Assembly: GCA_020152595.1 (NCBI GenBank)
Contig: JAIGNY010000491.1
Location: 62,001-126,000 of the forward strand
Source of the DNA: Chiridota heheva
Taxonomy: Eukaryota > Echinodermata > Holothuroidea > Apodida > Chiridotidae
Length of the DNA stretch: 64,000 nucleotides
Direction of reading: 5' to 3'
Notes under the pieces: generated by a model
Database searches by the model: none
Told to the model about the DNA's origin: nothing
What the model saw: the letters and a program-made list of their open reading frames with translations, nothing else
Program-made: the position numbers and the translations under genes
Shown: positions 27,358-50,432 of the stretch, in pieces
Layout: each line of letters starts with the position of its first letter
Numbering within the stretch: the stretch's first letter is position 1

Positions 27358-29391
27358 CTGATGGATTAAAATCAAACCAAATCGATCACACATTAGTCAA
27401 CAGAAGGTTCAGAAGCTCGGTAAGAGATACAAGAGTCCTGGAAACATAGCAATTGACCACCATTTAGTCAGAATTAAGTGCAATACAAATGAAGTCCAAG
27501 AAAGCTCCACTTCATGAAGTGAACAGAAGGAGAAGGTGTAATACAAACAAACTGAAGTATGTAGAAGTTAAGAACCAATTCAGCATAAAATTAAGAAACA
27601 GATATCAGACACTGCAAGATGAATACACCCCTAAATGTGAAGAAACAGATGATGAAATTGATGCGGCTGAAGAAATAATGGAAAAAAGCATTTACAGAGA
27701 CAGCAGTAGAAGTATTAGGGTACAAGAAAAAGACAAGCAAACCATGGATAGGACCAGAAGCATGGACACTGGTTGAACAAAGAAAAGATATAAAGCAGAT
27801 AATAGAAGGCTTCAGGTTGGAAAGGGTGAAAGACAAATTGAAGAATGACTACAAACAGAGGGATAGAGAAATTAAAAAAGAAATGAGAGCTGATAAAAGA
27901 AATGAGAGCTGATAAAAGAAGATGGATAGATGAGATAGCTAAGCAGGCAGAAGATGCAGCAAGATTGCATCAAATGAAGACACTATACACACTAGTAAAA
28001 ACCCTGAGCAACGAAAAACCTTAAGGGGAGTATGCAGTGAAAGACAAAGATGGAAACGTAATAAGTGGAAGAGAGGAAACCCTAAAGAGATAGAGCGTGC
28101 ACTTTGAAGAGGTGCCCAATAGGGAGAAACCAGACAACATTGTCATGGAACAAAAGGAAGCAGACATTACAGACATGGACACAAACCCACCAAGTCTGAC
28201 AGAAATAAATGATGCCATCAAGTGACTCAAGAATGGCAAAGCACCAGGAATCGATTGTAGTATAGTAGAGTTTATACTCAAAGCAGGCACTGATTTCACA
28301 ACCATAAAACTGAAAGAGTTACTAAACAAAGTATGGTTACACGAAAAAATCTCCCAAGTAAATGGAAAAGAGGACTAATTATCAAGCTCCCAAAGGGGAT
28401 CTAAAGGAATGCAAAAATTGGAGAGGCGGAACTCTATTACCTATCGCTAGTATAGATAGTAGAATAAGATTTTAGAAAGAATCATCATCAACCGGATTAG
28501 TGAAGGAACACATAACAAACTGAGAAAGGAACAAGCAGGGTTCAGAAAAGGTATTAAAGGAAGTAATGAACAAATCTTCATGCTGAGAAACATCGTTGAA
28601 CAGGTCAACGAATGGCAAGCCCACTGTACGTACACTTCGTAGACTTTGAAAAGGCATTTGACTCACTTCATAGAGAATCCATATGGTTAATAATAAAGCA
28701 CTATGAAATACCCAACAAATTGGTCAGCATCATGACAGCAATGTACGACAGTTTCAACTGTGCTGTAATTGATCAAAATGACACAACTAACTGGTTCCCA
28801 GTTACCAAAACAAGGCTGCCCAATGTCAGGTTTCCTGTACCTACTTGTCATAGACTGGGTGATGAGAAGAGCAATGTAGAATGGTAAGACAGGAATCCGA
28901 TGGAAGTTCACATCCAAACTTGATGACCTTAGACTTTGCAGATGACATTGCTCTCCTATCCTCTACCAAACGGCATATGCAAACAAAGACCAATAGGCTA
29001 ACAGAAGAGGCTAAAAGAACCGGATTAAAATTTAACACACAGAAGTGCAAGACCATAAAATTGATAGAAAATTTCAATTAAGGAAGTACTACAAAGAGCT
29101 GATATCCAATTCCTCAGCGATGTCAGACAAAGGAAATGGAAATTCATTGGTGACATATTAAGGCATGAACAAAACGACGACTGTGTTACAGCTCTAACAT
29201 GGACACCTGATGAAAAACGTAAAAGGGGGAGACCTAAATGACTTGGAGGAGAACCGTTCAAAAGGAAAGAAACAAGGCACGGTGGAAAACATGAAATAAA
29301 ACCAAAATAGCTGCAGCCTGAAAGACTGAGTGGAAATTATTGTGTGGAGGCCTTATGTGCCACTTGGCACGAAATAGCTAGGTAAGAAGGC
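27358..29391 (+). pseudogene. RTE-like LINE (endonuclease end plus reverse transcriptase), degenerate, nested in the I-like LINE
   Basis: The plus strand begins inside an APE-type endonuclease end (NQIDHTLVNRRF, 27377). A linker follows, then RT: LKNGKAPGID (28228), EQAGFRKG (28527), VHFVDFEKAFDSLHRESIW (28630), a frameshifted RLPNVRFPVPTC in place of the usual QGCPMS block, and LDFADDIALLSS (28929) with the catalytic ADD intact. The C-terminal part includes [14 protein letters not shown] and EALCATWHE near 29345. Several stops and frameshifts break the frame. Both ends are flanked by ATTGTTGCACC (27347-27357 and 29392-29402), an 11-bp target-site duplication. Assignment to the RTE-like group rests on the general look of the RT and endonuclease; the clade is less certain than the element class. 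Confidence 0.85.
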
Positions 29392-30700
29392 ATTGTTGCA
29401 CCAATCTTGCAGCCAGTTGAGGCTGAGTTGGAGCCTATTTTTGACAAGAGGAAAGCTAAGGGAGGAGTAGAAAATGGTAAAGTCGTCCACTTAGAGGGTA
29501 CGTTTGATATTGGGGCCAAGGTTGTCCACGATGTTGTTAATGCTCAGGTTGAAGAGAGTGGGGGAGAGGATGCTGCTTGGGGGATGCCCTCTTCTTGGGG
29601 GTGGGGGTTGGAGAAGGTGTGGCCAATACAAACTTGGAACTGCCTAGGTGAGAGGAAGTTTTAAATGAAGATGGGGAGATGGCCTCTGAGGCCGATGGTG
29701 TGAAGCTTGCAGGTAATGCCATATTTCCAAGTAGTGTTAAAAACTTTCTCAAGGTCTAAAAAAGATGGCAATGAGGCGTTCCTTTTAAGCAAAGGATTCC
29801 TGGATAGCGATGTCGAGCATAACTGGTCCAGGGAACTGCAACATTTCCGGAAGCTGCTTTGAGGAGGGGAGAGGATTCTGTTGGTCTCAAGGAACCAGTT
29901 TAGTTTTTGGTCAATGATCCTTTCCATAATTCTACAGAGACAGCAGGTAAGGGTGATAGCTGGAGGGGTCGGTACTGTCCTTCCCAGGTTGGGCATGGGG
30001 TGATAATAGCTGTCCTCCAGATAGGTGGAAAGGATTGTGAGGACCAGATGTGGTTAAGGATGGTGAGTAGGTAGAGTAGTGGTGGCCTTGTTGGAGAGGT
30101 GTTTCAGAAACTGGTAGGGATGTTACCTGGGCCCTTGGAGGTGCAGCCAGCATCGTGGATGGCTTGGTTTAATTCAGAAAGGGTGAGAGGGGTGTTGTAG
30201 CTCTCGGTGTTGTCAGAGGGAAAGGTAATACTCCAGGTTTCGTCGCGAGCTGTTTTGGCTTTAAAAGCATTGGGGTAGTTTGCCGAGAACAAGATGTTGC
30301 TGAAAGAGGCGGCGAGGTGGTTAACGATACTTTATTCGCGGTGAGAATGTTACCATTCCAGGAGAGATGGGAGACTTGCCCATCCTGCCATGGAAGCTGT
30401 TAACCATATCCCAAACCTTTTTAGTGGGAGTGTTGGTGGTGAAAGAAGATGAAGTTGTTTCAAGGCTTGGTTTTACTGCCCTTGAAAGTGCGCCTGGCTT
30501 TGGCACAGCTGATGCAATAGAAGTTGAAGTTGTGGGTGGTCGGGTTTGTTTTGAAGTTCCTGAGGGCCCTTTTCCTATTCTTGATGGCAATTTTACAATC
30601 ATCGGTGACTAAGGGGTTTGGGGGGGGGGGAGGGGGTTGTTAGGGAGTTTTGAGGTTTTAAGAATGGAGCAGGTAGCGATGTTACTGAGCTTAAAACTGC
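29392..30700 (-). mobile_element. I-like LINE copy, 5' part (reverse transcriptase), continues 26683-27357
   Basis: On the minus strand RT blocks are visible: ITLTCCLCRIMERIIDQKL (~29950), FFDLEK-like FLDLEKVFNTTW (~29755), and the catalytic region at ~29490. There the YVDDF of the related copy is changed to a stop followed by VDDF. The upstream end codes a K/R-rich linker (CKIAIKNRKRALRNFK, ~30580) and fades near 30700. No endonuclease was found, so it is 5'-truncated or diverged. Frameshifts and stops make it non-functional. Confidence 0.82.
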
Positions 30701-31119
30701 AAGGAGTACATGGCTAAACACAGATCTAAAAAGAAGAAGTCAAACAACATTTTTGAGGAACATCTGAATAAACTGGTTTGCAAGACTTTCAAAGACAGCA
30801 TCACAGTGCTTTTTTTAGGAAACCATTAACAAAGCTCGAAATAAAGTCTTGTTGCGGTGTTTTGATTTTTATACTATATTTTTTATAGGGCATAGTAGTT
30901 TAGGGATAAATTTCTATTTAAAGGATTATTCCACTGAATTTCATATGATAGAGGAATTTTGAACAAATTGTATAAAAATCATATTAATTTCTGATTCTGT
31001 TTTTGTGTCCTTTTAAAAGAAAGAAAGAACAGACAGAAAGCAGATATCAAGGAATTCGATCTGCATGTGATAACAAAATACTTTTGTTAAATTTCGTTCA
31101 TATATAAAAGGACCAAACT
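30701..31119. other. AT-rich non-coding spacer
   Basis: No exon or repeat was recognised between the LINE and the 19-bp array. Confidence 0.4.
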
Positions 31120-32878
31120 GGGGAGAATGCTCGGCTGGGGTGAAAAGCTGGGAGAATGCTCGGCTGGGAGAGGAATGCTTGGCTAGGAGGGGAATGCTCG
31201 GCTGGGAAGGCAATGCTCGGCTGGGAGGAATGCTAGGCTGGAAGGGGAAAGCTAGGCTGGGAGGGGAATGCTAGGCTGGGAGGGGAATGCTCGGCTGGGA
31301 GGGGAATGCTCAGCTGGGAGGGGCATGCTCGGCTGGGAAAGGCATGCTCGGCTGGGAGAGAAATGCTCGGCTGGGAGGAAAATGCTCTGCTGGAAGGGGC
31401 ATGCTCGGCTGGGAGGGGCATGCTCGGCTGGAAGGGGCATGCTCGGCTGGAAGGGGCATGCTCAGCTGGGAGGAATGCTCGGCTGGGAGGGCAATGCTCG
31501 GCTGGGAGGAATGCTAGGCTGGGAGGGGAATGCTCGGCTGGTAGAGGCATGCTCGGCTGGGAGAGAAATGCTCGGCTGGTAGGGGAATGCTCGGCTGGGA
31601 GAGAAATGCTCGGCTGATAGGGAATGCTCGGCTGAGAAGGGCATGCTCGGCGGGGGCATGCTCGGCTGGAAGGTGCATGCTAGGCTGGGAGGGGCATGCT
31701 CGGCTGGGAGGAATGCTCGGCTGGAAGGGGAATGCTCGGCTAGGAGAAGCATGCTCGGCTGGGAGGGGAATGCTCGGCTGGGAGGGGCATGCTCGGCTGG
31801 GAGAGGCATGCTCCGCTGGTAAGCTGCTCGGCTGGGAGAGGAATGTTCGGCTGGGAGGGGAATGCTCGGCTGGGAGGGGCATGCTAGGCTGGGAGGGGCA
31901 TGCTCGGCTGGGAGGGGCATGTCGGCTGGGAGGGGCATGCTAGGCTGGGAGAAATGCTCGGCTGGGAGGGAATGCTCAGCTGGGAGGGGAATGCTCGGCT
32001 GGAAAGGCAATGCTATGCTGGAAGGGGAATGCTCGGCCGGGAGGGGCATGCTAGGCTGGGAGGGGAATGCTCAGCTGGGAGGGCATGCTCGGCTAGGAGG
32101 GAAATGCTCGGCTGGGAGGGGAACATCGGCTGGCAGGGGAATGCTAGGCTGGGAGGGGAATGCTCAGCTGGGAGGAGAATGCTCGGCTGGGAGGAGAATG
32201 CTCGGCTGAGAGGGGAATGCTCGGCTGGGAGGGGAATGCTCGGCTGGGAGGGGAATGCTCAACTGGGAGGGGAGCATCGGCTCGCAGGGGAATGCTCGGC
32301 TGGGAGGGGAATGCTCGGCTGGGAGGGGAATGCTCAACTGGCAGGGGAGCATCGGCTCGCAGGGGAATGCTCGGCTGGAAGGGAATGCTAGGCTGGGGGG
32401 GAATGCTAGGCTGGGAGGGGAATGCTCGGCTGGGAGGGGCATGCTCGGCTGGGAGGGGAATGCTCGGCTGGGAGGGGCATGCTCGGCTGGGAGAGGCATG
32501 CTCCGGCTGGTTAGCTCTTTCGGCTGGGAGAGGAATGCTCGGCTGGGAGGGGAATGCTCGGCTGGGAGGGGCATGCTGGGCTGGGAGGGCATGCTCGGCT
32601 GGGAGGGGCATGTCGGCTGGGAGGGGCATGCTTGGCTGGAAGGGGCATGCTCGGCTGGGAGGGGCATGCTCAGCTGGGAGGGGCATGCTCGGCTGGAAGG
32701 GGAATGCTTCGCTGGGAGGGGAATGCTCGGCTGGGAGGGGAATGCACGGCTGGGAGGGGTATGCTCGGCTGGGAGGGGAATGCACGGCTGGGTGGGGAAT
32801 GCTCGGCTGGGAGGGGCATGCTCGGCTGGGAGGGGAATGCTCGGCTGGGAGGGAAATGCTCGGCTGGGGGGCACTTTG
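31120..32878. repeat. 19-bp GC-rich satellite, ~92 copies
   Basis: The unit is GGGAGGGGAATGCTCGGCT, with GGGGCATG and GAGAGGAATG variants. A marker series (GAGAGGCATGCTCC, then a GGTAAGCTG or GGTTAGCTC unit) at ~31800 and ~32490 shows a block duplication about 690 bp apart. A 76-bp sub-block with GGGGAGCATCGGCTCGCAGG repeats at ~32270 and ~32345. The unit has no stop in most phases, so plus frames read (GMLGWEGNARLGGECSAGR)n and minus frames read Pro/Ser-rich peptides over 200 codons. Both strands are equally open, so neither is called as a gene. Confidence 0.95.
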
Positions 32879-35805
32879 CTGAGTGGGGACCACGACCCCC
32901 ACCTCCAGTTAGTGTGTTAAAAAAGGCCATGCAACGTACATCGAAAGCTATTTTCATGGACAAATATATATTAGGCTTATACTATCTTCTCTTAGAAACC
33001 AGGGAAAATTCACCCCAGGTAAACAAAATTTGCCTAATATTTTGAGGGGCAAATTGAATGGCCTCTGAATTTTGAAAATGTTTTACAGCTTCAATCAATG
33101 ACATTTACATCTATGCCCAAAATCAAAAGCACATTTGATCAATTATAATGAAATTTAAAGGACGTTTAGTGTATTAAATACAATCATTATTTCATATGAT
33201 AAAGGATGAAAATCTAAATCAACTATCAAAAATAGCAAGTCAAAATCCTATTCCTATCTCAAGTCATTCATGTACTGAAATCAACACATGGATGGAGGCT
33301 GCCATGTTGTTCATGTACTGAAATCTTGTGTATGAATGTCATTATTTCCCCAACAAGGACAAGGATTATAATGTATTTCTTTGTCAATTTTATTGTTTTT
33401 ATTAGGTTTTTATTCTAAAAATCAACAAAAAAGTTTTAAAAACATGTATTGATAATATGTGTACAAAAATGTCCTCGACCCTTACAAAAAAGACAAAAAA
33501 ATTCAATACACTAGAAAACTTAGATAAATAGAAATACAAGGCATTCCAATATGATGGGTTGATGACATTACTTTCTGCATGTTTTACATACAAAATGGCA
33601 GCTCCCATACTACTGTTAAGTAGTAGAATTGAAGTTTTTAATACGTACAAAAAATATGTTAGATTGCTTTAGGGGGTATATAAAATGAGGATTATGTCGG
33701 ATTTTATGTCCCCTTTAAATTGGATTTGTTGGTGATTTCTACATTGAGACCACTGTGAATTTTCATTTCTTTAATAAATTGTCATATTGAGTTATGTCAA
33801 ATGCTTGCTAGATGTGAGCAGCATGAGCAGATATCTACTGTATACTAAACAACTTTCACTTGTGATGGAATTTTCCTCAGTTCTTCCCCTGGAGCATTTC
33901 AACCCTTTGCAAAAATAGAAAAATACCTGAAATTTTAACTACAGTTAATGTCCCATAAAAGATATTTACATGACCTGAGCTGTACTTAGTTAAGACAATA
34001 TCTCCAAGCTATCTGCATAGCAACCGTGCCTTGAAAATGTTTTGAAACTTTTGCCTGTGGGTTACAAGCCCTACCTACATCATACATGTACATCATACAT
34101 GTACATCAGTCTTGAGGCAATCTCTTGTAATATTCGCTTTGATATCTCTGACAGTGTGGTTTCTTGTCAGGTTGTGCTCTCACATGTCTTAAAGATATGT
34201 TTATCATTTGCAAGAAAATTTTGTTCATTGCTCCATTCCTTGGTTTGTAATGATTGGAAAAGAAAATGAGATCTTTCGGTCAAACTTAAGTTTCAAATTG
34301 GATGATGAAAACAGGTCAAATACCAGATTATTCTATCAAAATTCTGCTCATATAACCAGTCTGAGGATGATTACAGCTCACTGGGATGAATAATAAGGAA
34401 TATTAGGTAAGAATAGTCAATTCATGGTGCACACAGATTGTATTTGCTGCGAAATTCTACATTTTCAGTTCCAAACAAATCTGGTATGTATCTACTAAAT
34501 TGAAAGCTTACTCAGTAACTAAGATTGCAGAAAAACTGAAAGGATAAATCAAATTTTAAGAAAGATACCTTTGAAAAAGCCAAACAAAGGTAACAAAATT
34601 TAGTAAAGAGAGCATTTTACTTTAACCAATTTCAAACTAAAGAACTGCAAAAATCAGTTCAAAATTTTGTTTAACAGACTAATATTCAGGTTTCACTGCA
34701 AATTCTTATACAAAAGTGCAATGTGAATGAATATGTAGATAACCTAATGTATGAGAGTTTTCTTAATAAGTGGAATTCAGGAAAGAAAGAGTTACATCAA
34801 ACATTTGAGCTGTCATCAAACATCACAAACTGTGTGTACATTCAAAACTCAGCCAGATCTCAAAAACCAAAAAAGCTAATAATAGGTAGGCAGTAAAAGA
34901 CTTTTTAAAGAATGCACATATAATAAAGTAAGACGAGTCTTTAAGCTTCTATGCTGAAATAAAACCGGGTTAATAGATATTATTTCTCACAATTGATCTT
35001 GCAGACAACTGTCTGGTCCTTAATCATTTCTGTCTCATCATGATTACGCCGCTTACACCCTTTGACACAGATGCACATCTGTCTGTCTGTCCATGGATAG
35101 AAAACTCTTGGGCAGAACCAAAGAATCATCCTCAAATCTTCCATATCTCGGAGATATCATTCTTGGAGATATCATTCTCGTAGGTCTGTTTCCCATCAAA
35201 GTAATTTGCCTTCTGGCAGGGTGATAAGTGGTACTATTATGGCAATACCAGGAATAACAAAACTCATCTTAATAACTTCAAATTGCCTTTTGTGTTCAAA
35301 ATTGAACTTTGGTGAAAATTGATTCTCACATCAGGTGCATCACAAATTGCTGTAACCTTACAATTTATTGAAGTAAAGTAAAACATCTGATATGCCGATT
35401 GTAATTCAATCAAGGATTCACAATACCAAGAGAAATACCTGTAGATCATTAAAAATGAACAGAATCGTTAAATCATATTCACATCAAACAAAATCTTATT
35501 ACTCTTTCATTCCCTCACAGATTACTTCAATTTGGGGCCCATCCAAAACTTCTCAATCAAGGTAGAGGTAAGTCCTATGAGATTTAAAGGGATATGGAAA
35601 TCACTCAACGAAGAAGGTGCATGAATTTATGGTACTAAAGTTATGTTCATTTTCAAAATTATTAAAAAAGACACAAATGAATATATTCAAGGAATAATCA
35701 AAATTTCAAAAATTACCATTAATCAAACTTAAGGCCAGATATCGTGTTACCATGGAAATAAAAATGCAATACAACCCAACATTTCTGATTGGTCAAAATA
35801 TTTAC
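32879..35805. other. Longest non-repetitive stretch of the large intron
   Basis: AT-rich with no recognisable coding domain. Short frames at 34042-34269 and 33402-33650 have no family resemblance. A 13-bp duplication, CATCATACATGTA, lies near 34080. Nothing else was seen. Confidence 0.45.
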
Positions 35806-36960
35806 ACAATCACCAGTGGCGCCTACTGTCACAGATGTGGCGTTACTAGTATGTATGAATTATATTTACACAATCACCAGTGCGCCTACTGTCACAGATG
35901 TGGCGTTACTAGTATGTATGAATTATATTTACACAATCACCAGTGCGCCTACTGTCACAGATGTGGTGTTACTAGTATGTATGAATTATATTTACACAAT
36001 CACCAGGGCGCCTACTGTCACAGATGTAGCATTACTAGTATGCAATGAATTATATTTACACAATCACCAGGGCGCCTACTGTCACAGATGTGGCATTACT
36101 AGTATGCAATGAATTATATTTACACAATCACCAGTGCGCCTACTGTCACAGATGTGGCGTTGAATTATATTTACACAATCACCAGTGCGCCTACTGTCAC
36201 AGATGTGGCGTTACTAGTGGGCAATGAATTATATTTACACAATCACCAGTGCACCTACTGTCACAGATGTGACGTTACTAGTGGGCAATGAATTATATTG
36301 ACACAATCACCAGTGCGCCTACTGTCACAGATGTGGCGTTACTAGTGGGCAATGAATTATATTTACACAATCACCAGTGCGCCTACTGTCACAGATGTGA
36401 CGTTACTAGTAGACAATAAATTATATTTACACAATCACCAGGGCACCTACTGTCACAGATGTGGCATTACTAGTATGCAATGAATTATATTTACACAATC
36501 ACCAGTGCGCCTACTGTCACAGATGTGACGTTACTAGTATGCAATGAATTATATTTACACAATCACCAGGGCGCCTACTGTCACAGATGTGGCATTACTA
36601 GTACATGTATGCAATGAATTATATTTACACAATCACCAGGGCGCCTACTGTCACAGATGTGGCATTACTAGTATGCAATGAATTATATTTACACAATCAC
36701 CAGTGCGCCTACTGTCACAGATGTGGCATTACTAGTGGGCAATGAATTATATTTACACAATCACCAGTGCGCCTACTGTCACAGATGTGACGTTACTAGT
36801 GGGCAATGAATTATATTGACACAATCACCAGTGCGCCTACTGTCACAGATGTGGCGTTACTAGTGGGCAATGAATTATATTTACACAATCACCAGTGCGC
36901 CTACTGTCACAGATGTGACGTTACTAGTAGACAATGAATTATATTTACACAATCACCAGT
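35806..36960. repeat. 63/64-bp satellite, ~18 copies
   Basis: The unit is ATTTACACAATCACCAGTGC, GCCTACTGTCACAGATGTGG and CGTTACTAGTATGCAATGAA plus TTAT. The first three units are 63 bp with TATGTATG; later ones are 64 bp. One 46-bp unit lies at ~36160. A Cys/His-rich peptide appears only while the 63-bp period holds the frame. The array stops at the LINE tail at 36961. Confidence 0.95.
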
Positions 36961-39317
36961 TTGTTTGTTTGTTTGATGAAAGTTTAACAGCACCACAACA
37001 GCAGGGTCAAATTGTGCCTGTGAGGTTAGATCATTCCAGAGGTAGGAAGGAGAGTAAACAGGGGAAGATTGAGGAAACGCGAGAAATAAAAGCCAGAAAG
37101 CTGGGATGAAGAGAGGACGTATATGGGTGAAAAAAATAATGTAGAGAGAGAGAGGAGGTGGGGAAGGAGGACTAAATATGATTGTAGAGGGAAGCATAAT
37201 GAAGGAAGGAGATCATTTTATCCGGAGATTTTTTTTGGAAGAGCTTGGCTACTGAGTTGTGGGCAGTGAGGGAAGCTCTGAGAAGGTTGTACAGGGGACA
37301 AGCAAGGAGAATGTGATGGACTGTGAGGATGCAATGGCAATTGTTGCAGGGGTGGGGAGGGAGCCAGTAAGGAGGTGGGAGTGAGTGAGGTGGGTGTGAC
37401 CTATTTGCTAAGGCGGGTAATGTGGACGTTGTTGACACGGAATAGGTTGTGAGTAGTGGGTTTGATCGGAATGGTGGGTTGGATGACGTGGAGTTTGTTA
37501 TCAATTTGGGAGTCCCATGAGGTTTGCCAGCGGCCACGAACAAGGCAAGTGATAAGCGGTTTGATGTCAGAAAGTGTTTTGGGAAAAGGGCTTGGGGGAA
37601 GGGTGAGGGCAAGCTTAGCAGCTGCATAAGCCCTGTCATTGCCAGGGATGCCAACATGGCTGGGTATCCAGAAGAAAAGAATATGTTTTCTACGGAGGGG
37701 GGAGGGGGAAGGACTTTACGGAGGATGAGGTGAGATGTAGGGTTATTCTATTTAACATTGAGTAATGAAGTAAGGACAGCCTTAGAGTCAGAGAAGATGG
37801 CAAAGTGGCTGAGTGGAGAGTATTCAGTAAAGTTGAGGGCGAGGAGGATGGCCTTGGCCTCAGCCGAGAAGATGGATGAGTAGTCGGGAAGCTTGCTACT
37901 GAGGGTGATGTCTTGGATGATGGCAGCAGCAGCTGTCCTGTCCCCTTCCTTGGAGCCATCAGTATAGATGGAAGTATACTTTGAGAGTTGGTCTTTGATT
38001 TGGTTGTGGAGGTTGATGAAGAGGTTAGGGTGGGTTTGGGTTTTGTGATGAGTAAAGAGGTCCAGGAGGATAGTAGGGAGGAGCGTGGCCCATGGAGCAA
38101 AAGTGGGCCAGGAGAAAGTGCTGCGAGTGGTGGGATTGATGCCGAGATGGAGAAGGTCTGATTTGATGCGTAAGCTGAAGGGAGGGGATAGGGTTTTAGT
38201 CCTATCAAAGAGGGTGGAGAAATTGGGGTATCTAATGAGGTTGTAAACAGGGTTCTGGGTGTTAGTGAGGGCTCTAAAAGCATAGGAGAGGCTAAGCTTT
38301 CTACAACTTAGCAAAAAGGGGGGTTCGTTGGCTTTAACATGAAGGTTGGTGATTGGGGAGGTCCTGTAGGCACCCAGGCAAAGCCTGAGGGATTCATTTT
38401 GGATGGTGTTGATATGATTGAGGTACGAATTGTGAGCGGCACAGTAGACAATATTGCCTTAGTCAAGCTTGATACGAATGGTGAGCCTGAAGATTTTGAG
38501 GAGCATGCTGGTTCCACCCCAAGTGGTAATGAAGAGGAGGCGGAAAATGTTGAGGGAGCTGTTGCAATTCTGTTTCAGGTTGGTGATGTGTTGTTTGTAG
38601 GAGAGCTTGTGGTTTAGAGTTAAACCCAGGAACTTAGTGTGGTCAACTTTAGGGATGAGATTGCTATTAAGCACGAGCTTCGGGTTGGAGTGGAGGTTGT
38701 TGGAATGACAGAAGTGCATGCACTGTCTTGTCTTTGGAGAGTTTAAAACCGTTGTGGTTGCACCAGGCTTGCAGCCGATTGAGGTTGAGTTGAAGCCTAT
38801 TTTCGACAAGAGGAAAGCTTGGGGAGGAGTAGAAGAAGGTAAAGTCGTCCACGTAGAGTGCATGTTCGATGTTGGGGCCAAAATTGTCCGCTATGTCGTT
38901 AATGCTCAGGTTGAAGAGAGTGGGAGAGAGGATGCTGCCTTGGGGGACACCCTCTTCTTGGGGATAGGGGTTGGAGATGGTGTGGCCAAAATGAACTTGG
39001 AACTGCCTGGGTGAGAGGAAGTTTTGAATAAAGGTGGGGAGGTGGCCTCTGAGGCCGATAGTGTGAAGTTTGCAGATAATGTCTTATTTCCAAGTAGTGT
39101 CGAACGCTTTCTCAAGGTCAAAAATATGGCAATGAGGTTTCCTTTTTTGCAAAGGATTCCCGGATAGCGGTGTCAAGCGTAATTAACTAGTCTAGGGTAC
39201 TGCAACGTTTTCCAAAGCCGCTATGGTGAGGGGAGAGGATTCTGTTGGTCTCAAGGAACAAGTTTAGTCTCTGATTCATGATCCTTTCTATGATTTTACA
39301 GAGACAGCAGGTGAGGG
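36961..39317 (-). mobile_element. I-like LINE copy, best preserved (RT to 3' end), interrupted by a MITE
   Basis: The 3' end is at 36961 with a (CAAA)n tail on the minus strand. From 5' to 3' on the minus strand: RT blocks near 39300-39000, an intact YVDDF catalytic motif at ~38846, FLGLTLNHKLSYKQHI (~38630), RALTNTQNPVYNLIRYPNF (~38270), and an RNase H domain with YTDGSK (~37965), SAEAKAI (~37860) and FSDSKAV (~37780). A degraded PSHVGIPGND (~37650) and CNNCHCILTVHHILLACPLY (~37340), a C-x2-C-x7-H-x4-C motif, follow. Frameshifts split these domains, so no full-length product is possible. It resumes after the MITE at 39752. Confidence 0.9.
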
Positions 39318-39751
39318 CAGGCCGCCCAGTAACTCTTTTTTTAAATAAAGGTTTTTTTAAAGGTTGGAAAAGTTGAAATAAAGGTTTTTAAAGGTTTTGG
39401 ATTTAAATAAAAAGGTTTATAAAGGTTAACTCATAGAATAAATTTTCATACAATGAGCATATTCTGGGGCAAAAGGCAGTTGGTGGCGCCAAAAGTCCAT
39501 CACTTAATACGTAAAGTTGGAAATTTTATTTTGGTCCTGCTACTTTTTAAATGTGTGTTGAGAACAGATATGCTATTAAATGGATGTGTATACTTACCAA
39601 TGAAGCTAAAACCTTGGCACTAGAATCATTTACCTTACTTAACTTTAAAAATAAAGGTTTTTAAAGGTTTAAAAGGTTATTTTGAAAGGAATAAAGCTTC
39701 AATTTGTCAATAAAGGTTTTAAAGGTTTTTAAAAGTTTACCGGGAGCCCTG
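39318..39751. mobile_element. hAT-like MITE inserted in the LINE
   Basis: The ends are CAGGCCGCCCAGTAACT and, reversed, CAGGGCTCCCGGTAAACT, an imperfect terminal inverted repeat with the CAG-G start typical of hAT elements. The flanking LINE sequence TGAGGG (possibly GTGAGGG plus one changed base) is duplicated, close to the 8 bp expected for hAT. The interior is AT-rich with many AAAGGTTTTTAAAGG motifs in both orientations and no coding capacity. The uninterrupted relative at 29941 (CAGGTAAGGGTGATAG) confirms the empty site. Confidence 0.78.
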
Positions 39752-40016
39752 TGAGGGTGATGGGGCGGTAGCTGGAGGGGTCGGTACCGCCCTTCCCTGG
39801 TTTAAGGACGGGGATGACAATAGCTGTCCTCCAGATAGGGGCAAAGGAGTGTGAGGACCAAATGTTGTTGAAGATGGTGAGTAGGAGGGTAGTGGTGGCC
39901 TTGATGGGGAGGTGTTTCAGGAACTGGTAGGGGATCTTATCTGGGCCCTTGGCGGTGCAGCCAGCGTCGTGGATGGCTTGGTTTAATTCAGAAAGGTTGA
40001 GAGGGGTGTTGTAGCT
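39752..40016 (-). mobile_element. I-like LINE copy, 5' remainder after the MITE
   Basis: Continues the RT-upstream region of the copy at 36961; it aligns with 29950-30205 of the other copy (GTCCTCCAGATAGG, GTGTTTCAGGAACTGGTAGG, GATGGCTTGGTTTAATTCAG). It ends where the 53-bp repeat begins. Confidence 0.85.
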
Positions 40017-40195
40017 ATTACATCTATAGCTATAAACCTTGTTTGAATGTTTTAGGTATTGTATACAGGATTACATCTATAGCTATAAACCTTGTTTTAA
40101 TGTTTTAGGTATTGTATACAGGATTACATCTATAGCTATAAGACCTTGTTTTAAATGTTTTAGTATTGTATACAGGATTACATCTATAGTATGTT
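40017..40195. repeat. 53-bp repeat, ~3.3 copies
   Basis: ATTACATCTATAGCTATAAA, CCTTGTTT and GTATTGTATACAGG recur at a 53-bp period, directly after the 5' end of the LINE. Confidence 0.9.
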
Positions 40196-40696
40196 TTACA
40201 GAATTTGATTAAATAATAGTTTTTTCATTGAATTGAGACCAGATATTCATAAAATCACTATGAAGATACACCCAGTTCTCAGATAAAACTTACATCTTTA
40301 TTTAATATTAGCGGATTAGTTACAAATATCCCAGCAAATTCAGTTCAAAGTTGCATCAGTTTAAAGCTTCTGGAATTTTCAGGTCTTATTATTTTAAAAA
40401 AATGCAATAATGTTGGATGCAATTACCTTTTTTTCTTATAATTCAATTACTTAAACAATGCATTCATAAGTCTGCAGTGTCTGAATTTGGATAATATGCT
40501 TTTTCTTTCAGCATTCACTACCACGACAGTCAAACAATACTGTAGAATAAGTCTGCAATGTCAGAATTTGGAAAATGATTTGTAGCTTTTGTCTACTGTA
40601 TATTAAGAAATCTTGAACTTTGAACAGCCCCTTTACAGAAATTTTACCTTACAGCCTAAGCACACTTGCGACAAGCTAACAATTTATAGCTTGCCC
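40196..40696. other. AT-rich non-coding spacer
   Basis: Two diverged copies of AATAAGTCTGCAATGTC...GAATTTGG are visible at ~40466 and ~40546. No exon was recognised. Confidence 0.45.
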
Positions 40697-41163
40697 AAGC
40701 ATGCTGCAAGCTTGTAGCAAGAATACTGCAAACTTGCAGCAAGCGTACTGCAAGCTTGCAGCAAGAATACTGCAAGCTTGCAGCAAGCGCACTGCAAGCT
40801 TGCAGCAAGCGCACTGCAAGCTTGCAGCAAGCGTACTGCAAGCTTGCAGCAAGCGTACTGCAAGCTTGCAGCAAGCATACTGTAAGCTTGCAGCAAGCGT
40901 ACTGCAAGCTTGCAGCAAGCGTACTGCAAGCTTGCAGCAAACATACTGCAAGCTTGCAGCAAGTGTACCGCAAGCTTGTAGCAAGCGTACCGCAAGCTTG
41001 CAGCAAGCGTACCGCAAGCTTGCAGCAAGCGTACCGCAAGCTTGCAGCAAGCGTACTGCAAGCTTGTAGCAAGCGTACTGCAAGCTTGCGCAAGCTTAAA
41101 TTGTTAGCTTGTTGCAAGCGTGTTGCAAGCTTGTCGCAAGCGTGTCTCAAGCATGCTGCAAGC
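40697..41163. repeat. 22-bp satellite with a palindromic core, ~21 copies
   Basis: The unit is AAGCTTGCAGCAAGCGTACT plus GC. GCAAGCTTGC is a perfect 10-bp palindrome in nearly every unit. No stop falls in the common unit, so open frames exist on both strands. The right end degenerates into TGTTGCAAGC and TGTCGCAAGC forms. Confidence 0.95.
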
Positions 41164-41312
41164 TAATATTTCTATAAGGGCCATACTGTTAGCCAGAAAC
41201 TACATACATTTTTTTACAGAATTCCCTGCTCTTCAAATAAAACTCTTAAGGTGATTTGACCTAGAGCTAATGAAAGTATGACAACCCGTACAGAAAGCGG
41301 AAGTTGCCATGC

Positions 41313-41495
41313 CTTGCCGGCTGACGGGTGAGCTTGCTGGCTGGCCATGAGCTTGCCGGCTCCCCGTGAGCTTGCCAGGTGGCTGTGAGCTTGCCAGCTT
41401 GCCGGCTGGCTGTGAGCATTACGGCTGGCCATGAGCTTGCTGGCTCACTGTGATCTTGATGGCTGTCCGTGAGCTTGCTGGTTGACCATGAGTTT
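41313..41495. repeat. ~19-bp degenerate repeat, ~9 copies
   Basis: Units resemble GTGAGCTTGCCGGCTGGC with ATGAGCTTGCTGGCTCAC variants. The AGCTTGC core is shared with the neighbouring 22-bp array, suggesting a common origin. Confidence 0.8.
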
Positions 41496-41779
41496 GACAC
41501 AAGCTTACAATTGGAATTTTAACCAACTCATAAAACCAAACCAATTTGCATGAGGCTACGACATGCTCACTGCATCACAAGTACAACTTGCTCGAAGTAA
41601 CAGCCAGCTCTGACATGCTAAGTGCTATAATGCTTTAGGGCAAGCTCAAATTTTATATGGAAACGTTAGCTAAAATTGTCTTCATTAAAGTTTATTTTCC
41701 AACCACACCAAATAAACTGAAAAAAAGAGAGAGAAAAGAAGAGGTATGAATATAAAGTCCCAATTTAAATGCATTCCAC

Positions 41780-44700
41780 GAATATTCTAGCTGCTGTAAT
41801 GACTGCTAGACCCTTTCTCCTTTTGCCAATATTCTAGCTGCTGTAAAGACTGATACACCCTTTCTCCTTTTGCCAATATTCTACCTGCTGTAATGACTGA
41901 TATACCCTTTCTCCTTTTGCCAATATTCTAGCTGCTGTAATGACTGATATACCCTTTATCCTTTTGCCAATATTGATATACACTTTCTCCTTATTCTCTA
42001 ATGACTGATATACACTTTCTCCTTTTGCCAATATTCTAGCTGCTGTAATGACTGATATACCCTTTCTCCTTTTGCCAATATTCTACCTGCTGTAATGACT
42101 TTTGCCAATATACACTTTCTCCTTTTTGCCAATATTCTTGCTGCTTTTGTAATGACTGATACACCCTTTCTCCTTTTGCCAATATTCTACCTGCTGTAAT
42201 GACTGATATACACTTTCTCCTTTTGCCAATATTCTGTAATGACTGATATACACCTTTCTCCTGCTGTAAGCTGCTGTAATGACTGCCAATATACCCTTTC
42301 TCCTTTTGCCAATATTCTAGCTTTTGCCAATATTCTAGCTGCTGTAATGACTGATATACCCTTTCTCCTTTTGCCAATATTCTACCTGCTCTAATGACTG
42401 ATATACCCTTTCTCCTTTTGCCAATATTCTACCTGCTGTAATGACTGATATGACTTTCTCCTTTTATACCCTTTCTCCTTTTTTGCCAATATTCTACCTG
42501 CTGTAATGACTGATACACCCTTTCTCCTTTTGCCAATATTCTACCTGCTGTAATGACTGATATACACTTTCTCCTTTTGCCAATATTCTACCTGCTGTAA
42601 TGACTGATACACCCTTTCTCCTTTTGCCAATATTCTACCTGCTGTAATGACTGATACACCCTTTCTCCTTTTGCCAATATTCTACCTGCTGTAATGACTG
42701 ATACACCCTTTCTCCTTTTGCCAATATTCTAGCTGCTCCTTTAATGACTGTAATGATACACCCTTTCTCCTTTTGCCAATATTCTACCTGCTGTAATGAC
42801 TGATACACCCTTCCTCCTTTTGCCAATATTCTAGCTGCTGTAATCTCCTTTTGCCAATATTCACTGTAATGACTGATTTCTCCTTTTGCCAATATTCTAC
42901 CTGCTGTAATGACTGATACACCTGCTGTAATGACTGATACACCCTTCCTCCTTTTGCCAATATTCTACCTGCTGTAATGACTGATACACCCTATCTCCAT
43001 TTGCCAATATTCTAGCTGCTGTAATGACAAATATACACTTTCTCCTTTTGCCAATATTCTACCTGCTGTAACGACTGATACACCCTTTCTCCATTTGCCA
43101 ATATTCTAGCTGCTGTAATGACAAATATACACTTTCTCCTTTTGCCAATATTTTACCTGCTGTAATGACTGATATACACTTTCTCCTTTTGCCAATATTC
43201 TACCTGCTGTAATGACTGATATACACTTTCTCCTTTTGCCAATATTCTACTTCCTCCTATTGCTAATATTCTACCTGCTGTAATGACTGATACACCATTT
43301 CTCCTTTTGCTAATATTCTACCTGCTGTAATGACTGATATACCCTTTCTCCTTTTGCCAATATTCTACCTGCTGTAATGACTGATATACCCTTTCTCCTT
43401 TTGCCAATATTCTACTTCCTCCTATTGCTAATATTCTACCTGTTGTAATGACTGATACACCATTTCTCCTTTTGCCAATATTCTACCTGCTGTAATGACT
43501 GATATACACTTTCTCCTTTTGCCAATATTCTACCTGCTGTAATGACTGATATACCCTTTCTCTTTTTGCCAATATTCTACCTGCTGTAATGACTGATACA
43601 CCCTTTATCCTTTTGCCAATATTCTACCTGCTGTAATGACTGATATACCCTTTCTCCTTTTGCCAATATTCTAGCTGCTGTAATGACTGATATACCCTTT
43701 CTCCTTTTGCCAATATTCTACCTGCTGTAATGACTGATACACCCCATCTCCATTTGCCAATATTCTAGCTGCTGTAATGACTGATATACCCTTTCTCTTT
43801 TTGCCAATATTCTACCTGCTGTAATGACTGATATACCCTTTCTTTTTTTGCCAATATTCTACCTGCTGTAATGACTGATATACCCTTTCTCCTTTTGCCA
43901 ATATTCTACCTGCTGTAATGACTGATACACCCTATCTCCATTTGCCAATATTCTAGCTGCTGTAATGACTGATATACCCTTTCTCCTTTTGCCAATATTC
44001 TACCTACTGTCATCATGACTTTTGCCAATATTTTACCCTGTAATTTCTCCTTTTGCCAATATTCTACTTGCTCTAATGACTGATATACCGTTTCTCCTTT
44101 TGCCAATATTCTAGCTGCTGTAATGACTGATACACCCTTTCTCCTTTTGCCAATATTCTTTTGCTCTAATGACTGATATACACTTTCTCCTTTTGCCAAT
44201 ATTCTAGCTGCTGTAAAGACTGATACACCCTTTCTCCTTTTGCCAATATTCTACCTGCTGTAATGACTGATATACCCTTTCTCCTTTTGCCAATATTCTA
44301 CCTGCTGTAATGACTGATATACCCTTTCTCCTTTTGCCAATATTCTACCTGCTGTAATGACTGATACACCCTATCTCCATTTGCCAATATTCTAGCTGCT
44401 GTAATGACTGATATACCCTTTCTCCTTTTGCCAATATTCTAGCTGCTGTAATGACTGATATACCCTTTCTCCTTTTGCCAATATTCTAGCTGCTGTAATG
44501 ACTGATATACCCTTTCTCTTTTTGCCAATATTCTACCTGCTGTAATGACTGATATACCCTTTCTCCTTTTGCCAATATTCTAGCTGCTGTAATGACTGAT
44601 ATACCCTTTCTCCTTTTGCCAATATTCTACCTGCTGTAATGACTGATATACCCTTTCTCCTTTTGCCAATATTCTAGCTGCTGTAATGACTGATATACCC

Positions 44701-45748
44701 TTTCTCCTTTTGCCAATATTCTAGCTGCTGTAATGACTGATATACCCTTTCTCCTTTTGCCAATATTCTACCTGCTGTAATGACTGATATACCCTTTCTC
44801 CTTTTGCCAATATTCTACCTGCTGTAATGACTGATATACCCTTTCTTTTTTTGCCAATATTCTACCTGCTGTAATGACTGATATACCCTTTCTCCTTTTG
44901 CCAATATTCTAGCTGCTGTAATGACTGATATACCCTTTCTCCTTTTGCCAATATTCTAGCTGCTGTAATGACTGATATACCCTTTCTCCTTTTGCCAATA
45001 TTCTAGCTGCTGTAATGACTGATATACCCTTTCTCTTTTTGCCAATATTCTACCTGCTGTAATGACTGATATACCCTTTCTCTTTTTGCCAATATTCTAC
45101 TGCTGTAATGACTGATATACCCTTTCTCCTTTTGCCAATATTCTAGCTGCTGTAATGACTGGTATATCCTTTCTCCTTTTGCCAATATTCTACCTGTTGT
45201 AATGACTGATATACCCTTTCTCCTTTAGCCAATATTCTACCTGCTGTAATGACTGATATACCCTTTCTCCTTTTGCCAATATTCTACCTGCTGTAATGAC
45301 TGATACACCCTTTATCTTTTGCCAATATTCTACCTGCTGTAATGACTGATATACCCTTTCTCCTTTAGCCAATATTCTACCTGCTGTAATGACTGATACA
45401 CCCTTTCTCCTTTTGCCAATATTCTACCTACTGTCATGACTGATATACCCTTTCTCCTTTTGCCAATATTTTACCTGCTGTAATGACTGATATACCCTTT
45501 CTCCTTTTGCCAATATTCTACTTGCTCTAATGACTGATATACACTTTCTCCTTTTGCCAATATTCTAGCTGCTGTAATGACTGATACACCCTTTCTCCTT
45601 TTACCAATATTCTCTCTGCTCTAATGACTGATATACCCTTTCTCCTTTTGCCAATATTCTAGCTGCTGTAATGACTGATACACCCTCTCCTCCTTTTTGC
45701 CAATATTCAAACTGCTGTAACGATTGACATACCTGTTCTCCTTGTGCC
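41780..45748. repeat. 47-bp satellite, main block, ~84 copies
   Basis: The unit is GCCAATATTCTACCTGCTGT, AATGACTGATATACCCTTTC and TCCTTTT. Truncated and rearranged units are common at 42060-42480, 42720-42960, 43240-43440 and ~44010; the 44200-45400 part is highly regular. On the minus strand each unit has CATTACAGCAG|GTAGAA, an acceptor-like then donor-like sequence. Confidence 0.95.
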
Positions 45749-46345
45749 AAGGCTTGAAAGTTCGGTGTAGATTTTGAACTTATTTTTGTGAAAAACTCTG
45801 AGATGATGTACAGAAGGTTACAGTATAAATAATTCTTTGCATCGCCTGCCCATATTTATTTAGGAAGGGCAAAAGAAATGTTTCACAAAAAAAAAAAAAA
45901 AAAAATGTTATGAGATGCCAGTATCACATCTCTGAAAATAGGAAACAAAATCCCATGTTTCCAAAATATCCTGCTGTATCGTATTTGTTGAAAATAAGTT
46001 TGATCAATACAAAGGATGCATCAAACTGTACTTTTTGTTTTTGCATAAGAAATAAATTTTTGTAAGAACTGAATTTTCATAAGAAATGAATTCACCTTTT
46101 ATGCACCCTCCCATTTTGTTATGTAATTACTTGGAACTAGGTGTAGGTTTTACGTTTAGTAGTTTTGATCACTATGGGGGCATCTATGTTTTGATACAGA
46201 TGAAAACACAGATACAAAACACTTGCCTAGATTGTTTCTTACAGAACTTATTTGAGCTACATTTTTACCAGGTAGCCAGGCGGTAAATCAAATCAAGGAT
46301 ATGCATATATATCTTAGCTGAAATCTGTTGTAGACTATAATTCTG
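45749..46345. other. AT-rich non-coding spacer with a poly(A) tract
   Basis: A run of about 19 A lies at 45887-45905. The short reading frame at 46086-46286 has no domain. Confidence 0.45.
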
Positions 46346-46899
46346 TATGAACACATATCCATTGGACCATCACCCCATTGGACCCTCACCCTATTGGAAC
46401 CTCACTCCATTGGAACCTCACCCCATTGGAATCTCACCTCACCCCATTGAACCCTCACCCCATTGGACCATCACCGCATTGGACCCTCACTCCATTGGAC
46501 CCACACCCAAATGGACCCTCACCCCATTGGACCTTCAAGCCATTGGACCCTCACCCCATTGGACCTTCACCCCATTGAACCTCACCCCCATTGGACTCTC
46601 ACCCCAATGGACCTCACTTCACTGGACCCTCACCCCATTGGACCTCACCACATTGGACCCTCATCCCATTGGACCTTCATCCCATCAGACCTTCACTCCA
46701 TCGAATCCTCATCCCATTATACCTTCATCCCATTGGACCCTCAACCCATGGGACCCTCACCCCATTGGATTGGACTCTCACCCCATTGGATTAAACCCTC
46801 ACCCCATTGGACCCTCACCCCATTGGACCCCCCGTTGGACCCTCACCCCATTGGACCATTACCCCATTGGACCTTCACCTCATTAGACCCTCACCTCCC
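46346..46899. repeat. 16-bp minisatellite, ~34 copies
   Basis: The unit is ATTGGACCCTCACCCC with frequent single-base and indel changes. Pro/His/Trp-rich reading frames in all three plus frames follow from the repeat. Confidence 0.93.
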
Positions 46900-47084
46900 C
46901 ACTTTGAGGAGAAGGCCAGGTTACAGCACGGTAGTCTTGATTGATATTTTCCCTTACAAATCAAAGAGTGATCTGCCAAATTGCCTGAAGGATGTTTCTT
47001 ATATTCAAACTAACAATTATTGTTTAAATTGTTTTCCATGTGGGAACTCTTGCTTTCCAGTTCATTTAAGGTAAACATAACCAC

Positions 47085-47360
47085 AGTTTATTTGAGAAGC
47101 AGCTTCAGTTCATTTGAGGCGAGTGCAGCCTCAGTTCATTTGCAGCGAGTGCAGCCTCAATTCATTTAAGGCGAGTGCAGCTCAGTTCATTTCAGGCGAA
47201 TGCAGCCTCAGTTCATTTGCAACTAGTGCAGCCTCAGTTCATTTCAGGCGAGTGCAGCTCAGTTCATTTCAGGCGAACGCAGCCTCAGATCATTTGAGGC
47301 GAGTGCAGCCTGAGTTCATTTGAGGTGAGTGCAGCCTCAGTTCATTTGAGGCAAGTGCAT
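47085..47360. repeat. 26-bp minisatellite, ~10 copies
   Basis: The unit is CAGTTCATTTGAGGCGAGTG plus CAGCCT, with AGGCGAATG and TGCAACTAG variants. Confidence 0.92.
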
Positions 47361-47457
47361 TCATTTGTGGTGTGTTTACAATTAGATTTTTGTTGTTGTT
47401 ACTAGTTTTATTTTTCATTACCAAAAATGATCTGACTGCCTCCAACTATGTCAATAA

Positions 47458-47531
47458 GCATAGTTCATGCACAGTGGGCTAAGCATACTTCATGCACAGT
47501 GGGCTAAGCAAAGTTCATGCACAGTGGGCAA
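47458..47531. repeat. 26-bp repeat, ~3 copies
   Basis: GTTCATGCACAGTGGGCTAA recurs with a short GCATA or GCAAA linker. Confidence 0.85.
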
Positions 47532-47603
47532 TAAAACTTACTTCTGGACCCACTTTCCACCTGGCTAAAGTGCATGTGACATCACTGGCACATACTCAAT
47601 ACT

Positions 47604-47884
47604 TGGCTACTCTACCTGGCCATGCACACACTCTACTTGGCCATGCACACACTCTACCTGGCCATGAACACACTCCACCTGGCCATGCACACACTCTACC
47701 TGGCCATGCACACACTCTACCTGGCCATGCACACACTCTACCTGGCCATGCACACACTCTACCTGGCCATGCACACACTCTACCTGGCCATGCACACACT
47801 CTACCTGGCCATGCACACACTCTACCTGGCCATGCACACACTCTACCTGGCCATGCGCACACTCTACCTGGCCATGCACACTCC
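47604..47884. repeat. 21-bp minisatellite, ~13 copies
   Basis: The unit is CATGCACACACTCTACCTGG plus C. Units are very homogeneous; only AACACACTCCACC and GCGCAC variants are seen. Both strands stay open because the period is a multiple of three. Confidence 0.95.
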
Positions 47885-48873
47885 AAATTCCATGGCCAAG
47901 CTTCATCACTATATGTTGCTCTGAATCCTAGGTCATTCCATGATGTTATGCAGTTTCTTCCTCAAACTTCATTTATAAGAGCAGGTATATGTATGAGCAT
48001 ACAACAATAAGAGCAGGTACATGTATGAGCATACAAAAATAAAACAAATAGGATCAATTATTTCCATGGACCTCAACCCTTAAATGCTGGATCAACAACA
48101 TTATTGTCGATTTGGAAATGCTATTTTTAAACAACAAAATCTGGACCTTACCATAGGCCTACAGCACTGATCGTAATATGATTTAAAAAAGCTACTCTAC
48201 AGTAGTTCTATAAATAAACTTACATTTTTGACGAGAGTTATACTGAGAATTTTTGAGTAAACTCATTTTGAAAATGATTAAAAACGAAAATTTTGAAAGA
48301 AATTATCAAAAATTATTTTTTATTTTGAAACACTTACAAATTATACATCAGACCTTCCATTTGCCCCAAAACATGTTTACCAGTAGTGAACACTTCAACA
48401 AGTGCAAATCCAGTCAAATTTTGACAGTACCTATCATCAATCTCTATTTGGGAAAAAAATATGCAAAATTACATGATTTTCAGCCTTTTTTAGAAAAAAA
48501 ATTTCGCTCAAAGAATCGTAGCTCTTAAACAGAATACAACTGCCCTTTGCTAAAAACATCCTCAGAATGGTAGCTCCGCTACCTTTCAAATGATACGTAT
48601 TATGCTATTATCCTATCCGAGCTTAATGTTGCAATCATGCTCAAAATCATACACACTATGATTTCAGTCTGTTACACAGAGTGGTAATGAGTGGAGCTAA
48701 AAAAAGTACTTGTGCATCTTAAAGAGTCCTCCATTTTCATTATTCACAATGAAAAAAAAACAAGCTAAAAAAGGTTGATTAAAATGCCGTATTTTTGCCA
48801 AAAAATTGCGACATTTCATGTTTACAGTATGTCGATATTTTTGTCATTTTGACTTTTTTATTGTAAAGTTCAT
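47885..48873. other. AT-rich non-coding spacer with a 34-bp duplication
   Basis: AATAAGAGCAGGTAcATGTATGAGCATACAA-type sequence occurs twice at ~47976-48043. The 91-codon frame at 48253-48528 is A/T-rich, Lys/Phe/Ile-heavy and has no recognisable domain. Confidence 0.45.
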
Positions 48874-49203
48874 TGCCAATATTCTACCTGCTCTAATGAC
48901 TGATATACACTTTCTCCTTTTGCCAATATTCTACCTGCTGTAATGACTGATATACACTTTCTCCTTTTGCCAATATTCTACCTGCTCTAATGACTGATAT
49001 ACCCTTTCTCCTTTTGCCAATATTCTACCTGCTGTAATGACTGATATACACTTTCTCCTTTTGCCAATATTCTACCTGCTGTAATGACTGATACACCCTT
49101 TCTCCTTTTGCCAATATTCTACCTGCTCTAATGACTGATATACCCTTTCTCCTTTTGCCAATATTCTACCTGCTGTAATGACTGATATACACTTTCTCCT
49201 TCT
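48874..49203. repeat. 47-bp satellite, second block, ~7 copies
   Basis: Same unit as 41780-45748 (GCCAATATTCTACCTGCTGT, then AATGACTGATATACACTTTC). It is 3.1 kb away and separated by four unrelated arrays. Several units carry the CTGCTCTAATG and ATACAC variants, also found near 44160 and 45520 in the main block. Confidence 0.95.
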
Positions 49204-49383
49204 CTAGCATTCATATAAAAGAAACTTGTAATACAGAAAACAAAAGGAAATATTTGTAAATTAAGCATGATTAAAAAGTTTCGAAAAATTGCAGTCAGGT
49301 TTTGAACTCATCAGGCGTTTAAGGGTTAATTGTCCTTTATAATTTCATTCCATTTTATTCATTCATTAATAATTAAAGACCTA

Positions 49384-50047
49384 CCTGTTCAGTCTCTGAC
49401 CTATCCTGTTCGGTCACTGACCTATCCTGTTCGGTCTCTGACCTATCCTGTTCGGTCTCTGACCTATCCTGTTCGGTCTCTGACCTATCCTGTTCGGTCT
49501 CTGACCTATCCTGTTCGGTCTCTGACCTATCCTGTTCGGTCTCTGACCTATCCTGTTCGGTCTCTGACCTATCCTGTTCGGTCTCTGACCTATCCTGTTC
49601 GGTCTCTGACCTATCCTGTTCGGTCTCTGACCTATCCTGTTCGGCTCTGACCTATCCTGTTCGGTCTCTGACCTATCCTGTTCGGTCTCTGACCTATCCT
49701 GTTCGGTCTCTGACCTATCCTGTTCGGTCTCTGACCTATCCTGTTCGGTCTCTGACCTATCCTGTTCGGTCTCTGACCTATCCTCTTCGGTCTCTGACCT
49801 ATCCTCTTCGGTCTCTGACCTATCCTGTTCGGTCTCTGACCTATCCTGTTCGGTCTCTGACCTATCCTGTTCGGTCTCTGACCTATCCTGTTCGGTCTCT
49901 GACCAATCCTGTTCGGTCTCTGACCTATCTGGTTCGGTCTCTGACCTATCCTGTTCAGTCTCTGACTTATCCTGTTCGGCTCTGACCTATCCTGTTCGGC
50001 TCTGACCCGCCTGTTCCGCTCTGACCCGCCTGTTCCGCTCTGACCCA
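49384..50047. repeat. 21-bp minisatellite, ~31 copies
   Basis: The unit is CTGACCTATCCTGTTCGGTC plus T. It grades on the right into 19-bp forms (CTGACCCGCCTGTTCCGCT) and then into the 50048-50303 array. Long Arg/Asn/Gln-rich frames on the minus strand are repeat products. Confidence 0.95.
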
Positions 50048-50303
50048 CCTGTTCGGCTCTTGACCCGACTGTTCAGTTTTCACCTACCTATTCGGTTTTC
50101 ACCTACCTATTCGGTTTTGACCACCCTATTAGGTTTTGACCTACCTATTCGCTTTTGACCTACCTATTCGGTTATGACCAACCTATTCGGTTATGACCTA
50201 CCTATTCGCTTATGACCTACCTATTCGGTTATGACCTACCTATTCGGTTATGACCTACCTATTCGGTTATGACCTACCTATTCGGTTATGACCTACCTAT
50301 TCG
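50048..50303. repeat. 19-bp minisatellite, ~13 copies, whose last unit is the LRRC57 splice donor
   Basis: The unit on the plus strand is TATGACCTACCTATTCGGT; on the minus strand it reads CGAATAGGTAGGTCATAAC. The final unit overlaps exon bases 50297-50303. The donor ATAG|GTAGGT is present in almost every unit. Left units carry TTTTGACC or TTTTCACC instead of TTATGACC. Confidence 0.93.
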
Positions 50304-50432
50304 GTTTTGATTTGCAGATAAGTTTCGCAACTGGTCAAACTTTCCAATGGTATCCAGAATTGCTGGCAATTTGTTGTTTGACAGGTCAAGAGTTCGCAAA
50401 TTTTTCACTAGTCTCAGTAGTTGAGGTGGAAA
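50297..50432 (-). CDS. LRRC57: LRRC57-like leucine-rich repeat protein, internal coding exon (upstream of the 25.3 kb exon)
   Basis: Seen: the minus strand reads 45 codons plus one base without a stop, starting FPPQLLRLVKNLRTLDLSNN and ending in the LRR segment LRNLSANQNRI. This is two leucine-rich repeats of the LxxLxLxxNxL type. The acceptor is a pyrimidine-rich tract ending TTTCATTCCAG (AG at 50434-50433), giving phase 0. The donor is ATAG|GTAGGT (GT at 50296-50295), giving phase 1. Reading through the donor meets a TAA after GGT AGG TCA, so splicing here is required. Known: LRRC57 is a small (about 240 residue) cytoplasmic LRR protein of uncertain function; the order and spacing here match its N-terminal repeats as I recall them. 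Inferred: this exon precedes 25314-25582. Odd: the last dozen bases of the exon and the donor are the first unit of a 19-bp tandem array. No upstream exon was recognised at higher coordinates. Confidence 0.82.

Follow-up and report, generated by a model that had tools for sequence, protein, structure and literature searches.

The minus-strand coding exon that ends at position 50297 of the 64-kb window, by which we mean the whole stretch of DNA analysed here, runs directly into a long tandem array whose first unit contains the exon's own 5' splice site. The locus therefore raises the question of how a donor is selected among many near copies of itself, and of whether such an array is an accident, a regulatory element or a repeat older than the exon end. 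We think it highly probable that this is a donor-side "mirage", a chance product of a heavy minisatellite load, in which the first donor would be used and rare retention of repeat units would be removed by NMD.

The LRRC57 gene and the array at its exon A donor

The exon had been attributed to LRRC57, with its end at 50297, in the original prediction, and both points hold. In tblastn searches of the 64-kb window with human LRRC57 as the query, two exons matched: exon A at residues 28-74 (E 5.9e-9), and exon B at residues 76-166 (match at 25580..25308, E 9e-26). Joined, the two exons give an unbroken LRR frame that reads NRI-G-LLPESIG across the junction. Pfam assigns the joined product to LRR families (LRR_4, E 8.5e-19), and in the PDB it matches many LRR proteins, with LRRC57 itself absent among the best 60 matches listed. 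A search of the whole genome (1.1 Gb, 3744 contigs) returned 192 LRR matches, among which exon B ranked best and an exon 4 third. By itself exon A is a weak match in that search (E 3e-4), and it is assigned to LRRC57 because of gene order, reading frame, and exons B and 4. Exons 1, A, B, and 4 lie in gene order on the minus strand of one contig (C486), and exon A thus belongs to an LRRC57 gene more than 130 kb long. The 18 tandem arrays of the host intron were listed by hand from tandem-repeat output. The parts of the gene are as follows.

LRRC57 exon 1: approximately C486:151175-151095, minus strand; MGNSIKPHIERAEKTGVCQLCNYGLTE, E 2.7e-6
LRRC57 exon A: 50297..50432, minus strand; 136 nt, starts in phase 0, with the first base of a split codon at its end, FPPQLLRLVKNLRTLDLSNNKLPAILDTIGKFDQLRNLSANQNRI-G
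LRRC57 host intron A-B: 25583..50296, minus strand; 24,714 nt, of which 18 tandem arrays occupy 45%
LRRC57 exon B: 25314..25582, minus strand; 269 nt, acceptor TTTTTCACATAG|GTTTGC, donor AACAGG|GTAAGT
LRRC57 exon 4: approximately C486:19609-19418, minus strand; E 2.7e-20

The array at the exon A donor was resolved by unit decomposition into 45 complete units of two related lengths.

Whole array: 50304 (within exon A) to about 49378, minus strand; from the sequence and its unit decomposition
Exon A tail within the repeat: 50297..50310, minus strand; TCAAAACCGAATAG
Authentic donor: 50291..50299, minus strand; TAG|GTAGGT, the sole array donor to leave the frame open into exon B
19-bp part: 50077..50304, minus strand; 12 units, ten with TAG|GTAGGT, the authentic donor counted
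Transitional part: 50000..50076, minus strand; four units of 19-20 bp, including CAG|GTGGGT at 50049
20-21 bp part: 49378..49999, minus strand; 29 units, mostly CCGAACAGGATAGGTCAGAGA, with CAG|GTAGGT (49385) in a closing partial unit that is of the 19-bp type

The final partial unit reads CTGAACAG|GTAGGTC. Eight later copies repeat 10 or more of the terminal nt of exon A before their AG|GT, and the copy that ends at 50107 matches all of the last 14 (TCAAAACCGAATAG). The repeat unit crosses the exon-intron boundary, combining 10-14 exonic nt with the donor, and the claim that the donor sits inside the repeat is borne out by the recurrence of these exonic nucleotides together with TAG|GTAGGT. 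The copy numbers first given were slightly off: there are 12 clean 19-mers rather than about 13, and they are followed by about 620 bp of 20-21-mers rather than 660 bp.

Among the seven LRRC57 splice sites inspected (the exon 1 donor by eye), an array occurs at the exon A donor only. A separate array of about 8.5 kb with 37-bp and 22-bp units (window 50531-59103) stops about 100 nt before the exon A acceptor, and exon A is therefore flanked by arrays on both sides. Elsewhere in the window, one 47-bp unit makes up two arrays about 3 kb apart (41781-45750 and 48873-49201).

Competing donors and their likely use

From the exon end through the array there are 51 AG|GT sites, and only the first yields an open product. 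All 50 others produce a premature stop, in agreement with the earlier claim that any later donor brings in a stop: the 49 that add at least 19 nt stop at one common TAA codon, and for the site at +4 (50293) the stop falls later, within exon B. The reading frame thus acts as a read-out of which LRRC57 donor must be used.

Many copies retain AG/GT, and nine of the 50 downstream sites carry the identical 9-mer TAG|GTAGGT. Scored with a weight matrix, the authentic donor reaches 8.5 and is equalled or exceeded by 11 array sites, namely the nine identical copies and two higher-scoring ones whose sequences are CAG|GTGGGT (50049) and CAG|GTAGGT (49385); 300 dinucleotide shuffles gave a mean of 2.0 such sites and a maximum of 6. 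In most of the distal, 20-21 bp units the only donor-like site is TAG|GTCAGA, which looks weaker. Contrary to the original picture of many equal sites, the copies are not all equal to the first donor, since two score higher and most of the distal ones look weaker. A second donor-like array of the same intron adds further sites.

Second donor-like array of the host intron: 46359..46895, minus strand; 16-bp unit, 17 sense-strand sites scoring at or above the authentic donor

Outside its arrays, the intron has few donor-like sites in sense orientation (2 sense, 24 antisense), an apparent depletion that was set aside as mostly an effect of composition. Shuffled sequence gave 3.7 sense and 15.1 antisense sites, with a sense count as low in 28% of 300 shuffles and an antisense count as high in 4%.

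The original prediction had regarded a splice site amplified as a minisatellite as unusual, a judgement that comparison with published cases does not support. Minisatellites spanning an exon-intron boundary are a named class in lancelets, the mirages, described for Adh3 and for the globins BflGb6 and BflGb9 (PMC3087553, PMC3902484), with TnC and PGBD5 added as further cases (PMC3902484). As these sources present them, the repeats of the lancelet mirages, like those of LRRC57, include the boundary and many AG/GT copies; splicing is reported to be undisturbed, and the LRRC57 unit length lies inside the 10-72 bp range of Adh3 (PMC3087553, PMC3902484). The LRRC57 array differs in affecting another gene and in having 45 complete units in two related lengths; for PGBD5 the authors term the repeats imperfect (PMC3902484). 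Mirages are also marked by length instability between alleles; of the LRRC57 locus, the array-probe and joined A+B searches found one copy. The kind is already known, and the LRRC57 array is best read as a further mirage, on the donor side.

Human genes provide additional parallels. The ABCA7 intron 18 VNTR, a donor repeat studied with cDNA, has a 25-bp unit present in 12 to about 427 copies, flanks exon 18 and includes its donor, the GT of the first repeat being the canonical site (PMC5954066). Use of the next ABCA7 donor retains one unit and gives an out-of-frame isoform that does exist, and skipping of exon 19 is reported to grow with array length, whereas one-unit retention does not change (PMC5954066). 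In LRRC57, too, the array includes the exon's donor, and frame and homology place the canonical donor in the first repeat and show that the next donor breaks the frame. The ABCA7 repeat, as described in that report, starts at the intronic GT, whereas the LRRC57 unit has 10-14 exonic nt. A 31-bp VNTR of human CBS, c.1444_1467+7(16_21) (PMC2630376), comprises, as read from its name, 24 exonic and 7 intronic nt in 16-21 copies; it spans the boundary like the LRRC57 repeat but differs from it in unit length. In human IFI6 (6-16), a minisatellite is reported to give multiple splice donors (PMC4526556, citing Turri et al. 1995): two downstream repeat units act as donors, and three mRNAs encode isoforms (PMC4526556). 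Later donors thus yield isoforms in IFI6, whereas all 50 later donors of LRRC57 give a stop.

Reading frame and precedents together suggest that the exon-proximal donor of LRRC57 is the one spliced, and the array would be tolerated because of this. A later copy would occasionally be used; at least one unit would then be retained and a TAA gained, and the transcript would be cleared by NMD. The two array donors that outscore the authentic site on the weight matrix are a point against this reading. Being first is also no guarantee of use: at a 68-bp duplication of an intron 7/exon 8 junction of human CBS, the more distal of two sites is strongly favoured (PMC2630376), a precedent that slightly lowers our confidence. 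The array would belong to the mirage class and would have no dedicated function. Set beside the lancelet and human examples, it is a clean case on the donor side, in which the authentic donor faces nine identical competitors and two that score higher.

It is improbable, in our estimation, that the array is instead functional, its copies binding U1 and tuning LRRC57 output through competition and NMD, or guarding the 24.7-kb intron from premature polyadenylation. The excess of strong donor-like sites over the shuffle mean (11 vs 2.0), the 17 more contributed by the second array, and the stop that follows each of the 50 alternative donors would suit such a role, as would ABCA7, where expression is reported to be lower, and skipping of exon 19 commoner, when the array is longer (PMC5954066). 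However, the lancelet mirages are reported without interference in splicing (PMC3087553, PMC3902484), one-unit retention in ABCA7 is described as constant across array lengths (PMC5954066), and most 20-21 bp units offer TAG|GTCAGA as their only donor-like site.

Origin of the array

The repeat includes the codons AAC and ATA, which align to N and L of human LRRC57 and correspond to the Asn and the Leu/Ile that the LRR consensus conserves; distal units would read Thr at the second of these two places. The exon is therefore the likely founder, as had been suggested from the start, and coding sequence is likely the ancestor of the array. The edit distance to unit 1 increases along units 1 to 12 (Spearman 0.92, p 6e-5) and, less strongly, along all 45 (Spearman 0.39, p 0.009); among units 1 to 16, adjacent copies are closer to each other than in any of 2000 shuffles. 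This polarity would fit two rounds of expansion, the earlier giving copies that drifted to the distal form and the later taking place beside the exon.

We propose that a 19-bp segment, comprising the terminal 10-14 nt of exon A together with the initial 5-9 nt of the intron, was tandemly duplicated and then expanded to a minisatellite in a genome rich in such arrays. Its role in encoding LRR residues and the donor would have held the exon copy fixed, and the distal copies would have drifted toward the 21-bp form.

Slightly less credible than a functional array is the reverse course of events, in which an older minisatellite invaded or homogenised the end of exon A. Units 1-5 are identical, with the exon's own copy first, as expected from recent homogenisation. 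Against this, the shared codons give LRR-consensus residues in the correct frame, and the array sequence was found at no other genomic locus: a genome search with a 76-nt array probe, in which very common words were skipped and one candidate was scored, gave four matches, all at the LRRC57 locus. Gain of the intron itself by AGGT tandem duplication is very unlikely. The repeat unit does contain AG|GT, and the duplication model is established, including, as reported, a fission-yeast case with a 24-bp exonic repeat (PMC4974935). An intron of this kind would take both splice sites from the duplicated segment. Here the acceptor is 24.7 kb distant and not part of the array, which led us to reject this origin; the acceptor also has a pyrimidine-rich stretch of its own and shares only ATAG|GT. 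An assembly artefact is hardly believable, given the ordered variants, the polarity gradient, the gradual 19-to-21 bp transition, and a host contig of 1.59 Mb, even though the array-probe search and the joined A+B search found only one copy of the locus and no second haplotype. A retrocopy or second haplotype had also been sought as cDNA or allele evidence, and the joined search returned just the two exons.

Splice-site arrays elsewhere in the genome

Tandem arrays, 39 in all, make up 54% of the 64-kb window. Their unit lengths total 1.8% of it (1.3% for the 25 arrays of at least 150 bp), so that with random founders about 1-2% of splice sites should lie within an array. Two samples bear on this expectation. 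The first comprised 28 short kinase-domain exons, obtained from 40 hand-picked among 134 scored matches (985 candidates); their 56 ends are ends of profile matches rather than mapped splice sites. An array crosses an end in one of the 28 exons (1/56 ends), at the acceptor of L071. At this locus (L071:1-367; G000:C2424:33070-34000) the exon encodes part of a protein kinase (RDLKLDNLLL...), and a 96-bp array extends across its 3' splice site, ACACAG|GGATC. The acceptor region has three upstream copies, two of them retaining ACAG|GG, and only about 4 exonic nt are shared. This acceptor-side array is the mirror image of the donor-side array of LRRC57.

The second sample consisted of arrays with three AGGTAAGT words, of which there were 18 among the matches listed; one (C189, a GTAG-like simple repeat) was dropped and 17 were read. 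For each array, the preceding 260 nt and the open frames up to the first AGGTAAGT were read by hand, with no gene prediction, and five frames from four arrays were searched against Pfam and one against the PDB. Among these 17, drawn from the matches listed, none had a proven exon at its start and one had a possible exon: on the minus strand of L051 (L051:1873-2288; G000:C91), an array with AG|GTATGT and AG|GTAAGT copies adjoins a possible first coding exon, MAADCKNKKWSRLEDLAG...LRRSYVPLGTKRI, for which Pfam and PDB searches gave no match. One frame of L062 has a Pfam match to DUF6451 below the cut-off. Donor-founded arrays may thus be rarer than a neutral model predicts, a possible exon standing at only 1/17 array starts. 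A reversed-pattern control (4552 vs 705 matches) would at face value imply that donor-word arrays are scarce; it was set aside, as the reversed word resembles a common simple repeat. The two samples are small and opposed in direction.

Taking about 100,000 splice sites in the 1.1-Gb genome, it is conceivable, though we rather doubt it, that splice sites are amplified so often (about 1-2%; 1/56 ends) that donor or acceptor arrays exist in hundreds to thousands of genes, with array length as a heritable dial on output. Frequent amplification, if true, would offer a natural experiment on spliceosome choice among near-identical competing sites, and such arrays, if common in the genome, could show how a 5' splice site is chosen by its position rather than by its sequence.

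Two further arrays may be mentioned. An 18-bp array at window 6664-6772 (GACAGGATTCGAACCCAT) may resemble a tRNA T-arm. A 29-bp minisatellite (approximately AATTGGGTAGGTAGGTAAGTAGGGAAAAC) occurs on four contigs (L053, L061, L063, and L066) with DNA just upstream that is similar by eye, as if it were borne by a mobile element.
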